Source: Gammaproteobacteria bacterium (GTDB lineage Bacteria; Pseudomonadota; Gammaproteobacteria; Steroidobacterales; Steroidobacteraceae). From it: a stretch of DNA of 64,000 bases. Shown piece after piece: positions 14,477-21,106 of this stretch. Made by a program: the position numbers and the translations under genes. The notes below the pieces were generated by a model. The model worked only from the letters and a program-made list of their open reading frames with translations, did not search any database and was not told where the DNA came from. The number at the start of each line of letters is the position of its first letter. Position 1 is the stretch's first letter. The stretch covers positions 1 to 64,000 of the forward strand of contig JAQGOG010000056.1 of NCBI GenBank assembly GCA_028293765.1, written 5' to 3'.

Positions 14477-15277
14477 ATGCTGCAGTACCCCGGTTTCAAC
14501 CCCATAGCCATCGAAATCGGCCCGGTCAAAGTCCACTGGTACGGGATCATGTACCTGATCGGCTTTGCCGCCGCCTGGTGGTTGGCGCGGATGCGCGCTG
14601 CAAAGCCGCGCTCCACGTGGAAGCCGAACGACGTGGATGACCTCATCTTCTACGCCATGCTCGGGGTGATCCTGGGCGGGCGCATCGGGTACGTGCTGTT
14701 CTACGGGATCGGGTTCTGGGCCAAGGACGTGTGGTACCCCTTGAAGATCTGGGAGGGCGGCATGTCCTTCCACGGGGGGCTGCTCGGGGTGATCGTCGCC
14801 ATTACGCTGTATGCGATCCGGCATCACCGTAACGTCGCTGACGTGTACGATTTCACGGTTCCGCTGCCGACGCTGGGGCTCTTCTTCGGGCGGATCGGCA
14901 ACTTCATCAACGGCGAACTCTGGGGCAAGCCGACGACCGTGCCGTGGGGATTCAACGTGAACGGCCAGGTGCGCCATCCGTCGCAGCTCTATGAAGCGCT
15001 GCTGGAGGGCCTCGTGCTGTTCGTCGTCGTATGGTGGTTCTCGTCCCGCCCGCGGCCCCGGCTCGCGACGTCCGGAGTCTTCCTCCTCGGGTACGGCATC
15101 GCGCGCTTTTTTCTCGAATTCGTGCGCCTGCCCGATGAGCACATCGGTTATCTCGCTGGCGGCTGGCTGACCATGGGGCAGGTGCTGTCCCTCCCCATGA
15201 TCATCACCGGTATCGTGTTCCTTCTTTACGCCTACCGGGTACGAACACCCTCCGGCAACGTCGCCATCGCACAATGA
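14477..15277 (+). CDS. lgt: Prolipoprotein diacylglyceryl transferase
   Basis: [58 protein letters not shown]. Confidence 0.96.
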
Positions 15278-16068
15278 AGCCCTATCTGGAGCTCATGCGC
15301 CAGATTCGCGACACCGGCGCGCGTAAGGACGACCGCACCGGAACCGGGACGTTGTCGCTTTTCGCGCAGCAGATGCGCTTCGATCTCAAGCAGGGCTTTC
15401 CGCTCGTCACTACGAAGAAGATTCATGTGCGCTCGGTCGTCTACGAGCTGCTGTGGTTTCTTCGCGGCGATACCAACGTTGCGTGGTTACACGAAAACGG
15501 CGTCAGCATCTGGGACGAGTGGGCGGACGAACGCGGCGAGCTCGGGCCGGTATACGGGAAGCAATGGCGCGCATGGCTCGCTCCCGATGGCCGCACGATC
15601 GACCAGATCTCCCAAGCCATCGAGCAACTGCGGCGTAATCCCGATTCGCGCCGGATCATCGTGAGCGCCTGGAACGTGGGCGAGCTCGAGAAAATGGCGT
15701 TGCTGCCCTGTCACGCGTTCTTTCAGTTTTACGTAGCCGGCGGGTGTCTGTCCTGCCAGCTCTACCAGCGCAGCGCCGACATGTTTCTCGGCGTGCCCTT
15801 CAACATCGCCAGTTACGCTCTGCTCACGCACATGTTCGCGCAGCAATGCGACCTCGAGCCGGGCGAGCTCAGCTGGACCGGCGGCGACTGTCACCTGTAT
15901 CTGAATCATCTGCAGCAGGCTGACCTACAGCTCGCGCGCACGCCGTATCCGCTGCCGCGGCTCGCGATCAAGCGGCGTCCGCGCACTATTTTTGAATATG
16001 ACTACGAGGATTTTGAATTCGTGAATTACCAACATCATGCGGCGATCAAGGCGCCGGTGGCGGTCTAG
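15274..16068 (+). CDS. thyA: Thymidylate synthase
   Basis: [58 protein letters not shown]. Confidence 0.97.
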
Positions 16069-16071
16069 CAC

Positions 16072-16902
16072 ATGGCAAGCAGCAAGCAGGAACAGCAGTC
16101 GCCCCCGCTCGAGGTGCGCGATTCCGAGGTGCATGGCAAAGGGGTGTTCGCCGCGCGCCAGATCAAGAAGGGCGAACGCATCATCGAGTACATCGGCGAG
16201 CGTGTCTCGCACGATGAGGCCGACCGGCGTTACGAGGCGAAGGACGAGAACGACAGTCACACGTTCCTGTTCATCGTCGACTCGAAGACCGTGATCGATG
16301 CCGGCACCGCCGGCAACGAGGCGCGCTTCTTCAACCACTCCTGCGATCCCAACTGCGAGTCGGTGGTCGAGAGTCGTCGCGTGTTCATCGAGGCGCTGCG
16401 CCCCATCGAGCCCGGCGAGGAGATGACGTACGACTACCAGATCTACCGTGAGGACGGCGATCCGGAGAACATAGACGAGATCTTCGCCTGCCGCTGCGGC
16501 TTCCCGCAGTGTCGCGGCACGATGCTCTGGCCGCCCGAGCCCAAGAAGAAGAGCCGCAAGAAGGCCCGGAAAAACGCTGGCGGGAAAGCCAACGGCAAGT
16601 CCGCAGCCGGCGGCAAGCAGAAAAAGAAGAAGGCTGCGCCGGCAAAACGGTCGGCCGCCAGGAAGCGCCCGGTTGGCGGGAAAACGGCCGCAGCGGCCGC
16701 AAAGACGTCTGCCGCCAGGAAGACCTCCGCGGCCGGAAAGAAGTCTGCGGGCGGGAAATCCGCGGCGGGCACGAACTCCAAGGCAGGCAGTCGGTCCGGA
16801 GCGGGCAGCAGAGCCGCTCCCGGCCGCAAAGCCGTGAAGAAATCCGGGTCGGCGCAGAAGTCCGCGTCCAAAGCGGTAAAGAAGTCGGTGCGGCGCCGCT
16901 AG
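16072..16902 (+). CDS. SET-domain protein with Lys/Ala-rich histone H1-like C-terminal tail
   Basis: GKGVFAARQIKKGERIIEYIGE, NEARFFNHSCDPNC, GEEMTYDYQ, post-SET-like CRCGFPQCRGTM, then about 119 aa of K/A/S/G/R-rich sequence. Confidence 0.9.
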   Translation: MASSKQEQQSPPLEVRDSEVHGKGVFAARQIKKGERIIEYIGERVSHDEADRRYEAKDENDSHTFLFIVDSKTVIDAGTAGNEARFFNHSCDPNCESVVESRRVFIEALRPIEPGEEMTYDYQIYREDGDPENIDEIFACRCGFPQCRGTMLWPPEPKKKSRKKARKNAGGKANGKSAAGGKQKKKKAAPAKRSAARKRPVGGKTAAAAAKTSAARKTSAAGKKSAGGKSAAGTNSKAGSRSGAGSRAAPGRKAVKKSGSAQKSASKAVKKSVRRR

Positions 16903-16918
16903 GGGCGCGCCGCATGCC

Positions 16919-18775
16919 ATGAGCCACTCACGCTGGACTCTGTCGACGGTCGTCAGCGCTACCGGTATCGTCTACGGCGATATCGGTACGAGTCCGTTGT
17001 ATGCCCTGGAGCAATCCCTGGTTGCGGCGGGATCGTTCGACCGGGAAGCGGTGTTCGGCGTGTTGTCGCTCATCTTCTGGGCCCTGGCGATCTCCATCAC
17101 CCTGAAGTACGTGACGATCATCATGCGGGCGGACAACGAGGGGGAGGGCGGAATTCTCGCCCTCTTCGCTCTCGCGAAGCGGCGACTCATTGCCGGCAGC
17201 CGCTGGGCGCGGGCGGTAGTGGCGCTGGCCCTTGCCGGCACCGCGTTCTTCTTCTGCGACGCCTTGATCACGCCTGCGATCTCGGTGTTGAGTGCGGTCG
17301 AAGGCATGGAGCTGCTCAATCCGGGCTTCACGCAATATGTGATTCCGGTAACGATCGCCGTGCTGTTCGTGTTGTTCGCTTACCAGCGCCGCGGCACCGC
17401 CCGGGTGGCGAGCCTGTTCGGGCCGGTCATGGTGGTGTGGTTCGCAGTGCTCGCGGTCTCGGGTGCACTCGCGATCGGCCGCAATCCGCACGTGTTGGCC
17501 GCGATGAATCCGGTGTACGGCATCACTCTGCTGGCTCATCGGCCGGGTGTCGCGCTGGCGGTCATCGGCGCGGTGTTTCTGTCGGTCACCGGGGGCGAAG
17601 CCCTTTATGCGGACATGGGACATTTCGGCAAGACTCCTGTGCGCATCGCCTGGTTCGCCATGGTATGGCCAGCCCTCATCATCAACTACTTCGGCCAGGG
17701 CGCGCTGTTGCTCGAAGCGGGCCATGCGATCCCTCATCCTCTGTACCTCCTGGTGCCCCCCGCCGCGCTGCCCTGGATGGTGATTCTCGCAACCATGGCG
17801 ACGGTCATTGCTTCACAGGCCACCATTTCAGGCGCGTTCTCCATGGCGCGCCAGGCGGTGCAGCTCGATCTGTTGCCGCGGATCCGGGTGCTGCAAACCT
17901 CTGCGCAGGAACAGGGTCAGATCTACGTTCCGATCGTCAACTGGCTGGTCTTCGGCGCCGTCGTTGCATTCGTCATAGGCTTCGGTTCGTCGGACGCCCT
18001 CTCAGGCGCCTACGGGGCGGCCGTCGTCGGCACCATGCTCATCACGACGATTCTCGGGTCATTCGTCGCGGCCACTCAATGGAACTGGCCGAAGTGGGCG
18101 GTCGCGGTCCCGTTTGGCCTGATGTTTCTGCTGGACTGCGTGTTTGTCGCGGGCAATCTGACGAAAGTGCCGACGGGCGGCTGGATCCCTCTGACACTGA
18201 GCGCCGTGTTGTTCATGGTGTTCCTGACATGGCGCAGCGGACGCCTGGAGCTGCGGGCGGCGCTGGCAAAGATGGCCGTGCCGCGAAGCGAGCTGGCGAA
18301 GATGATCGCCGGTGCGCACCGTGTTCCCGGTACCGGCGTATTTCTCGCGAGCGATCCTGGTCTCGTGCCGTCCGCCCTGATTCGCAACATCGAGCACAAC
18401 GGCGTCGTGCACGAGCGGGTCATCATTCTGCAGATCGAAATCGCGCACACGCCCAGGCTGGATCCGGTGCGGCGTGTGAGCATCGAGGAGATTCTGCCCT
18501 CGGTCTACTCCATCACCGCGCGCTTCGGCTTCATGGAAACGCCGGACGTAGGCGAAGCTCTGAAGTCCTGCCGTACGCGGGGTCTAAAGGTCTTTACGGA
18601 GGACAGCTCGTTCTTCGTCGGCCGGCATGTGGTACGTGCTCGACCCCTCCCCGGTTTCAAGGGGATGCAGCGGCGCTTCTTCGCCCGGATGCAGCAGCAC
18701 AGCACGCAGGCGGCGGAGTTCTTCCGCATGCCGTTCCGCGGAGTGGTGGTGCTCAATACCGCCGTGGAAATCTGA
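16919..18775 (+). CDS. kup: Low-affinity potassium transporter Kup
   Basis: VSATGIVYGDIGTSPLYALEQSL; VEGMELLNPGF; TGGEALYADMGHFGK. Confidence 0.95.
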   Translation: MSHSRWTLSTVVSATGIVYGDIGTSPLYALEQSLVAAGSFDREAVFGVLSLIFWALAISITLKYVTIIMRADNEGEGGILALFALAKRRLIAGSRWARAVVALALAGTAFFFCDALITPAISVLSAVEGMELLNPGFTQYVIPVTIAVLFVLFAYQRRGTARVASLFGPVMVVWFAVLAVSGALAIGRNPHVLAAMNPVYGITLLAHRPGVALAVIGAVFLSVTGGEALYADMGHFGKTPVRIAWFAMVWPALIINYFGQGALLLEAGHAIPHPLYLLVPPAALPWMVILATMATVIASQATISGAFSMARQAVQLDLLPRIRVLQTSAQEQGQIYVPIVNWLVFGAVVAFVIGFGSSDALSGAYGAAVVGTMLITTILGSFVAATQWNWPKWAVAVPFGLMFLLDCVFVAGNLTKVPTGGWIPLTLSAVLFMVFLTWRSGRLELRAALAKMAVPRSELAKMIAGAHRVPGTGVFLASDPGLVPSALIRNIEHNGVVHERVIILQIEIAHTPRLDPVRRVSIEEILPSVYSITARFGFMETPDVGEALKSCRTRGLKVFTEDSSFFVGRHVVRARPLPGFKGMQRRFFARMQQHSTQAAEFFRMPFRGVVVLNTAVEI

Positions 18776-19054
18776 TCAGGGCCCAGCGCGCCGGCTTTTT
18801 TTGCGACTGCGGTGCCTGCGGGCGTCTAAATTTGCCGACAGTTGCGCGCGGCTTCAATTGGGCATAGACAGGAATCCGGAGCCGGTCCGGCTAATGAGCG
18901 CCGCAGCGGGCGAGCATGGGTCAGACGGGCTCCAGGCAGGCGCAACGCATTGGGCTCCGGGCGTCCGGGAGGGCATCCAGGACCGAGTGAGTCTATATCG
19001 CGTAGCCGGCGGCCGAAGGGTCGTTTTTCGGGTGAAAGGAACGGGGAGGGTTCG

Positions 19055-21106
19055 ATGAGGGCCATGATGGCGGCCGCCGCAGCCACAGCTGTGGCAATGA
19101 TTCTCGCCGCACTTGCCACGCGCGCCGACGCTGCCGGCATCACCACGCTCGTGCTGCCGGCCAATGCGAATGCCGCGGCTGCTGTTGCAGCGGGGGACAA
19201 AGCTACCCAGGCGCTGAAACAGATGCTCCTCGAGACCAAGACCGGCTCGGGAGCCAAGCTGGGGCCTCATTTGTTCAATTTGCAAAAAGCTTACGGCGCC
19301 CAGCCCCTGTGGCACGACGGCGGCTTGCGCGCAAAGCTCCCGCCGCTGCGCGTGCAGGACGGCTATGTGCGAATCAGTGCCTACGGCGATGACGTCAGCT
19401 CGCTTAAAACGCAGCTCGTCGGCAAGGGCATGCTCGACGCAAAGCTCCATGACCACGCGGTGACCGGGCGTGTTCCCATCGCGGCCCTGAACGACGTGGC
19501 CGCTACGGCTGGACTGAAGTTCCTCAAACCGGTGCTTGCGACGACGCGCGCTGGTCTCACGACGAGCCAGGGCGATCATTCCATGCGTAGCGATCTCGGT
19601 CGGGCGCAATTCGGAGTCGACGGCACGGGCGTTCGCGTCGGAGTGCTGTCCGACAGTTTCGATTGCGCGCCCGGTGCGTTCGCGACCGGGCAGAATTTCA
19701 CGCGAGCCGGCCAGGACGCCGTGAACGGCGACTTGCCGTTGGGTGTTCGCGTGCTAGCGGATCTACATTCAGCACCCGACAGTGAGTGCACGGACGAAGG
19801 GCGCGCGATGATGCAAATCGTGCACGACGTCGCACCCGGCGCAACGCTCTCCTTCCACACCGCTTTCGTAAGTGAGGAGGATTTCGCGGACGGCATCCTC
19901 GCGTTGGCGAATGACGGCGCGAAAGTGATCGTCGACGACGTGGGCTATTTCGACGAGCCGATGTTTGAGGACGGCGTGGTCGCCGATGCCGTAGATCAGG
20001 TAGTCGCTCGCGGCGTGGCGTATTTCTCTGCGGCAGGTAACGAGGCGCGCCAGTCCTATCAATCCGCCTTTCGCGCCTCAGGCCGGAAGGGGCTGGCGGG
20101 CATGCGCCACAACTTCGATCCGGGCCCCGGCGTAGTCGACCGACAGCAGATGGTGGCGCCGGCGGGCACGATCTCGCTACTCGCTCTCGCCTGGGACCAA
20201 CCGTCCTTTTCCTCAAATGGTGTGCGTGGGTCGCAGAGCGATGTCGATGCGATCTTCTACAACAGGGACGGCACGCCGGTGGCGCCCTGCACCGACAGCC
20301 CGGCGCAGCTCGTCTGCCAGCAGCCGGGTATCGCGAACAACATCGGCGGCGACGCGGTGGAGCTGCCGGTCATCGTCAATCTTTCCAGTCAGGATCTGCA
20401 GGTGCAGCTCGGTATCGAGCTCGTGTCGGGACCGACTCCGGGCGCGATCAAATATGTCTGGTACGACATGGGCGCCGCGGCCCTCAGCGTCGAAGCATTC
20501 GACACGGCCGGGAGCACCATTGTCGGGCATCCGAACGCGGCGGGCGCCGAGGCGGTCGGAGCGGCGGCCTGGTACCAGACAGAACGCTGGGGCAGTCCGC
20601 TGCGCCCGCAGTGCGTGCCGGCCTGCCTCGATAGCTTTTCTTCGGCTGGCGGCACGCCGATCCTGTTTGATCGCGCCGGTCGCCGGCTGGACGAGGCCGC
20701 GCTCCGGGCCAAGCCCGGGCTCATCGGCCCGGACGGCGGCAACACCAGCTTCTTTTTCTTCAAGCTGGGCTTCAACGTGCCGGGAAGCTCGGAGGATGAT
20801 GCCTTTCCAAACTTTTCGGGCACGTCGGCGGCCGCTCCGCATGTAGCGGCTGTCGCCGCGCTGTTGCTCGACAAACGTGCGCGCGACGTTGCGGCTCACC
20901 GGCGCATTCCCACCCCGCGTAACCTGACGCCCGCCGCGCTCTATGACGTGCTCCGCGAGACGGCCAGCGACATGCGATTGCGGAACGTAGGTGGGAACCT
21001 CGGGCCGCAGCCGGTGAGCGCCGCGGATGGGTTTGATTACGATTACGATACCGGCTTCGGTCTGGTGGATGCCGTGCGAGCGCTGCAAGCGATTTCCGGG
21101 GAATAA
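19055..21106 (+). CDS. S8-like (subtilisin-fold) secreted protease, variant catalytic centre
   Basis: Signal peptide MRAMMAAAAATAVAMILAALATRADA; Asp motif VRVGVLSDSFD; DEGRAMMQIVHDVAPGA; VAYFSAAGNEAR; FSGTSAAAPHVAAVAALLLDK. Confidence 0.85.
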   Translation: MRAMMAAAAATAVAMILAALATRADAAGITTLVLPANANAAAAVAAGDKATQALKQMLLETKTGSGAKLGPHLFNLQKAYGAQPLWHDGGLRAKLPPLRVQDGYVRISAYGDDVSSLKTQLVGKGMLDAKLHDHAVTGRVPIAALNDVAATAGLKFLKPVLATTRAGLTTSQGDHSMRSDLGRAQFGVDGTGVRVGVLSDSFDCAPGAFATGQNFTRAGQDAVNGDLPLGVRVLADLHSAPDSECTDEGRAMMQIVHDVAPGATLSFHTAFVSEEDFADGILALANDGAKVIVDDVGYFDEPMFEDGVVADAVDQVVARGVAYFSAAGNEARQSYQSAFRASGRKGLAGMRHNFDPGPGVVDRQQMVAPAGTISLLALAWDQPSFSSNGVRGSQSDVDAIFYNRDGTPVAPCTDSPAQLVCQQPGIANNIGGDAVELPVIVNLSSQDLQVQLGIELVSGPTPGAIKYVWYDMGAAALSVEAFDTAGSTIVGHPNAAGAEAVGAAAWYQTERWGSPLRPQCVPACLDSFSSAGGTPILFDRAGRRLDEAALRAKPGLIGPDGGNTSFFFFKLGFNVPGSSEDDAFPNFSGTSAAAPHVAAVAALLLDKRARDVAAHRRIPTPRNLTPAALYDVLRETASDMRLRNVGGNLGPQPVSAADGFDYDYDTGFGLVDAVRALQAISGE

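Follow-up and report, generated by a model that had tools for sequence, protein, structure and literature searches.

The window, that is the whole 64,000-nucleotide stretch of DNA analysed here, carries a housekeeping gene of the Steroidobacteraceae, a family of soil and freshwater bacteria, which encodes a SET-domain protein with a long and strongly basic C-terminal arm (Table 1). From its sequence and modelled core, we consider this protein to be probably an intracellular housekeeping SET-type protein-lysine methyltransferase that is anchored to a polyanion, most likely nucleic acid, by its flexible polycationic arm. As judged from the homologues, the property of the arm shown to be conserved is its net positive charge, not its letters, its lysines or strictly its terminus.

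Table 1. Features of the SET locus, with positions given in the window
Feature	Position	Strand	Basis
lgt; overlaps start of thyA	14477..15277	+	Pfam/NCBIfam, synteny
thyA, thymidylate synthase; its stop lies 3 nt ahead of the SET start	15274..16068	+	Pfam/NCBIfam, synteny
Predicted SET-domain protein-lysine methyltransferase with polycationic C-terminal arm, 276 aa	16072..16902	+	ORF, Pfam, homologues
Pfam SET domain PF00856, residues 22–123	16135..16440	+	Pfam match and family alignment
Post-SET CxCx4C (C140, C142, C147)	16489..16512	+	Invariant; alignment with the post-SET of MLL1/Set1
Basic disordered C-terminal arm, residues 153–276, K29 R12 E1, net +40	16528..16899	+	Composition
Degenerate 18-bp tandem repeat, 3.4 copies, within arm	16693..16754	+	Repeat analysis
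kup-type K+ transporter; separates SET from folA in some members	16919..18775	+	Pfam/NCBIfam, synteny
folA, dihydrofolate reductase, PF00186	21225..21698	+	Pfam, synteny

The reading frame of the SET gene has no internal stop over its 276 residues, and residues ~14–152 form the SET plus post-SET core. A sequence-only reading of this DNA had described a full SET core followed by a post-SET-like cysteine cluster, and both are borne out. The motifs GKGVFA (residues 22–27), NHSCDPNC (88–95) and GEEMTYDY (115–122) are all present, the match to the Pfam SET model scores 97.6 bits (cut-off 22.4), and the post-SET cluster C140-x-C142-x4-C147 is in place and invariant, with C91 as the expected fourth Zn ligand that would complete the site. 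The protein has the SET fold with the NHSC and Y-x-Y catalytic motifs characteristic of PF00856 methyltransferases, as well as the post-SET CxCx4C with a fourth Cys coming from NHSC. The top PDB sequence matches of the core are yeast Set1 and human MLL1 (~1e-26), and they run through the post-SET Cys cluster. A core-only AF2 model (pLDDT 92) found 2w5z (MLL1) as its best Foldseek match (E 4e-13, TMq 0.78), the top matches being MLL-family SET domains; the full-length AF2 model with the tail has a pLDDT of 55, and the structural reading rests on the core-only model.

In 28 family members Y40, N88, H89, S90, C91, Y120, Y122, C140, C142 and C147 are invariant. A wider set (n = 52), with identities as low as 31%, still has N88, H89, C91, Y122 and all three Cys of the post-SET unchanged. 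In the alignment, Y120/Y122 correspond to MLL1 Y3942/Y3944 and Set1 Y1052/Y1054, and Y40 to Set1 Y967, while the position matching Set1 F1056, an aromatic lysine-channel residue, is occupied by Ile/Leu. A Tyr at the Phe/Tyr switch usually goes with mono-methylation, which the Set1/MLL complexes exceed (PMC3585878). Against the closest relative (L002), the core has 9 nonsynonymous and 23 synonymous codon differences in 152 codons, compared with 43 and 23 in the 107 aligned codons of the tail; the catalytic core is shown to be under strong purifying selection, and the tail evolves much faster. Only one SET gene was detected in the window's genome. An antisense ORF (15925–16920) and other overlapping frames were also considered as genes and rejected, their openness being attributed to the GC-rich composition.

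The gene was surveyed in 296 genomes of the window's order, of which 139 belong to Steroidobacteraceae and 157 to other families. It is present in 133 of the 139 Steroidobacteraceae genomes, usually as a single copy in nearly all members; in the other families a SET match was seen in 6/157 genomes, all of them distant. Wherever the contig allows a view, the gene order lgt-thyA-SET-(kup)-folA is almost universal, folA directly adjoining SET in members without kup. Upstream of lgt lies an RlmI-like gene, a family-level label for an rRNA-methyltransferase-like gene whose scores are below the curated NCBIfam cut-offs. The gap between thyA and SET has a median of 4 nt across the family (30 nt or less in 85%), so co-transcription is likely. 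The folA gene of the window is the only PF00186 match in its genome, and the kup label is over Pfam's cut-off and slightly under one NCBIfam cut-off. A sigma-70 promoter scan gave 0 sites and terminators were at chance level, both scans being of little power in a GC-rich genome. Between kup and folA the window also holds a subtilase-like ORF (18842–21106, + strand; weak PF00082 match of 37.6 bits), which among the fetched loci is found otherwise only in the closest relative (L063).

Beyond the core, the in-frame tail of about 119 residues rich in K, A, S, G and R that had been read from the letters is confirmed as residues 158–276 (119 aa, or 124 aa when counted from W153). It consists of A 24%, K 23%, S 13%, G 13% and R 10%, with a single acidic residue. 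The reading frame is real past the core, because the closest relative (81% identity) stays open in this frame too, its tail being 114 aa long and its C-terminus, KSASKAVKKSVR, a match to that of the window protein. The net charge of +40 stands against 11.4 expected from the base composition of the locus (z 5.8). Shuffling the tail's own bases 5000 times gave a net charge of 14.7 ± 5.9 with a maximum of 35, and at most 13 Lys as compared with the 29 observed. The 18-bp tandem repeat within the arm is a likely source of its length change. The suggested likeness to linker-histone or AlgP-like tails stands for composition and fails for sequence, since the window tail contains neither KPAA nor S/TPK(K) (0 of each) and matched no family in Pfam and NCBIfam searches, histone H1 and AlgP domains included. 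Searches of the same genome for other proteins with a similar tail, and for AlgP-like repeats elsewhere (the latter run without a positive control), gave nothing convincing.

The main sample for the tails comprised 89 distinct homologue sequences from the family. Their C-terminal tails vary from 7 to 124 aa (median 39), and all 89 are net positive, with a median of +0.36 per residue. The absence of the tail from close homologues, which would have spoken against the sequence-only reading, was therefore not encountered, though the tail is down to 7–20 aa in one clade of the window's genus, where tethering would be weak. Basic tails are general in this sample, yet 8/89 have zero lysine and many have 1–2, with arginine instead. 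Tail charge exceeds the base-composition null with z > 2 in 77/89 and has a z of 2 or less in 12/89; in short tails it is modestly above this null, which accounts for part of the positive charge. The ratio K/(K+R) drops as GC rises (rho −0.38, p 3e-4, relatedness ignored). The mean net charge of the last 15 residues is +6.2 for SET, as against −0.6 to +2.3 for its neighbours in the same loci (ThyA +0.7, FolA +0.9, Lgt +2.2, RlmI-like +2.3, Kup −0.4, DUF255 −0.6).

In the core tree, the window protein, L002, L003 and L004 form one clade (support 96/97), the four tails having 22–29 Lys in 70–124 aa. Long tails are also found elsewhere in the tree, in L086 (0 K, 24 R), L116 and L130, and wider sampling added more K-rich expansions in L155 (KTKAKAK repeats) and L191/L192. 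The apparent 107-aa R-rich tail of L116 contains X residues and is possibly a read-through over an assembly gap. Arm length and the choice between K and R probably drift through repeat slippage and base-composition bias.

Sampling beyond the main set brought up exceptions, which bear on the terminus and limit the statement that all tails are basic. One member (L183, G106:C1:1388500-1394000) ends in DPEPLDAKAS (net −2) and has no basic C-terminal tail, and it carries, in the stretch from thyA to the core, a putative N-terminal arm of 111 aa that is K/R/S/A-rich with a net charge of +26, counted from a predicted start codon. This protein seems, from its sequence, to have swapped its basic arm from the C- to the N-terminus. 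Its relatives L055, L184, L185, L196 and L197 have N-terminal arms of +11 to +18 besides short C-tails, and the start NRRTQSR is common to several of the N-terminal arms in this group. The codon-position GC of these arms is consistent with coding (GC3 0.68–0.82), their start codons being predicted ones. One further member, L193, has neither arm (+3). Second SET genes with 51–56% identity, situated away from the thyA locus, were observed at L186 (G254:C22:335000-340500) and L188 (G264:C293:14500-19500), and these paralogues are without a basic C-terminal tail.

Outside the family, the nearest SETs of other gammaproteobacterial families have ~43–49% core identity (tblastn), and most of them end right after the post-SET with LxPKR(RR). 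In one of these families (f112), four tails (L288, L290, L293 and L296) are K/A/P-rich, 39–84 aa long and net +7 to +24. Like the Steroidobacteraceae protein, the f112 SETs combine a core (~45–47% identity, as compared for L153 and L157) with basic tails; they differ in that thyA and lgt are absent beside both loci checked (L153, L157). Since sister genomes end at LAPKRGRR, the f112 tails look independently gained, and the architecture of a SET core with a long basic arm has apparently evolved more than once. IMG/VR holds 72 viral contigs (L203–L274) with SET relatives, which are 24–41% identical over most of the core, shorter matches reaching 51%. The viral contigs that were read (L203, L205, L213 and L221) have no long basic tail. 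Because the viral SETs are only distant relatives, a phage origin of the Steroidobacteraceae SET is not suggested.

We read the arm as a putative nucleic-acid tether because its charge is conserved, end switching is seen, and the C-termini of the neighbours are without such charge. The tether to DNA proposed by the sequence-only reading thus gains indirect support, from a basic, hydrophobic-poor and unstructured arm that is kept family-wide and reappears at the other end in one clear case. In our preferred model, the flexible polycationic arm would anchor the predicted catalytic core on a polyanion of the cell. Nucleoid DNA or ribosomal/messenger RNA would be the most likely anchor, and the enzyme would become locally enriched near the lysines of proteins that occupy the same nucleic acid, candidate substrates being HU-like or ribosomal proteins. 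Catalysis, nucleic-acid binding and the methylation of nucleic-acid-bound proteins are what we infer for this family from its sequences, with which DNA, RNA and polyphosphate would be alike compatible as targets of the arm and cannot be told apart. There are precedents for such tails, as Streptomyces TopA has lysine repeats at its C-terminus that stabilise its complex with DNA (according to work cited in PMC6821194) and the AlgP CTD binds DNA (PMC9239181). A narrower model, which we put forward tentatively and regard as rather doubtful, is that of a nucleoid-bound writer, held on DNA by an H1-like polycation and methylating nucleoid proteins (or, in the lysine-rich clade, its own arm) while being co-expressed with dTMP synthesis, so that enzyme supply would follow DNA replication. 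If true, it would make the protein of much greater interest.

Other readings of the tail have to be weighed against the nucleic-acid tether. It is unlikely, though not far-fetched, that the tail binds the ribosome, RNA or polyphosphate granules and not DNA, the enzyme then methylating ribosomal or translation proteins. Low-complexity stretches rich in lysine are frequent in DNA-binding proteins of prokaryotes and in ribosomal proteins as well (PMC6821194); AlgP, whose low-complexity tail is similar, is located on polyP granules (PMC9239181); and the synteny block includes the rRNA-methyltransferase-like gene; however, no evidence favours RNA over DNA, and the closest operon neighbours are metabolic. 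We consider it distinctly unlikely that the tail is chiefly the enzyme's own substrate, its lysines being automethylated, either intramolecularly or in trans, to tune activity or DNA affinity. The 29 lysines of the window tail would offer ample sites, C. trachomatis NUE automethylates at K209/K210 outside its SET domain, with mutants being less active (PMC2904774), and MLL1 is described as automethylating too, though at an active-site cysteine (PMC3887211). The substitution of arginine for lysine in many tails, the dependence of K/(K+R) on GC and the fast turnover at the residue level all speak against it, and the lysine-free tails mean that automethylation is not the conserved family-wide purpose. 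The earlier suggestion that tail lysines are automethylated could thus apply to the K-rich clade of four (window, L002, L003 and L004), and not to the family.

The fast turnover, the tandem repeat, the wide range of lengths and the near-absence of a tail in some members would also suit a C-terminal extension that is almost neutral and arises as GC-rich repeats slip, on a protein of which the SET core alone matters. We find this quite improbable, because most tails are more basic than base composition predicts, neighbouring genes of the same loci do not have such ends, basic arms occur at the opposite end too, with an apparent end swap in L183, and long basic tails recur in f112. Least credible by far is that the protein is secreted and acts as a nucleomodulin in the manner of NUE or RomA/LegAS4, the basic tail directing it to the nucleus of a eukaryotic host and binding it to the chromatin there. 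Such effectors are among the known bacterial SET proteins (PMC3980110), and the nearest NCBIfam model is a Legionella effector, the T4SS effector AnkI/LegAS4 (NF043024); yet that match is far under its cut-off (50 vs 550 bits) and covers the SET part only, the gene is near-universal in the family and lies inside a housekeeping locus, and an N-terminal signal sequence was not apparent on inspection by eye.

Bacterial SET proteins are known and have been reviewed (PMC3980110), and in the open-licence literature searched neither the lgt-thyA-folA SET family nor its arm, nor any basic-tailed SET in Steroidobacteraceae, was found described. Bacterial SETs have been studied mostly as effectors on host histones. 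For the intracellular targets of their housekeeping relatives the present family offers a tractable case, with a near-universal gene, a fixed gene order, an MLL/SET1-like core and an arm that would predict where the substrates sit. The arm may also serve as a natural example of selection for net charge over sequence, residue type or terminus.

Among known systems, the MLL/SET1 (KMT2) enzymes provide the closest solved structures by both sequence and fold (33–39% identity), with the same catalytic and Zn residues and a Tyr at the Phe/Tyr switch. The Steroidobacteraceae SET differs from them in the Ile/Leu at the Set1 F1056 position, in having no visible pre-SET/SET-N regulatory parts or WRAD-type partners, and in a basic arm that replaces the chromatin-reader domains. 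Its resemblance to KMT2 (WRAD-dependent COMPASS, H3K4) lies, as far as the alignments tell, solely in the catalytic core, and we do not class it as a member. To our knowledge, neither a eukaryotic histone nor a WRAD partner is to be expected in a bacterium.

The reviewed bacterial group of cpnSET/NUE, RomA/LegAS4, BaSET and environmental relatives (PMC3980110) likewise places a SET plus post-SET core in a bacterium, whereas the Steroidobacteraceae SET lies in a housekeeping locus, is no apparent effector and carries its polycation in cis. Within that group, PMC3980110 cites a report (Murata et al. 2007) that cpnSET methylates Hc1, a chlamydial protein resembling H1; with NUE this methylation was not reproduced (PMC2904774). 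The tails of AlgP/PhaF, actinobacterial HU and TopA and the linker-histone CTDs are, like the arm, disordered, low-complexity, K/A-rich polycations of variable length and repeat-derived origin. Unlike the AlgP/H1 tails with their KPAA or S/TPKK repeats and AlgP/H1 domains, the SET arm is fused to a predicted methyltransferase and exchanges K freely for R.
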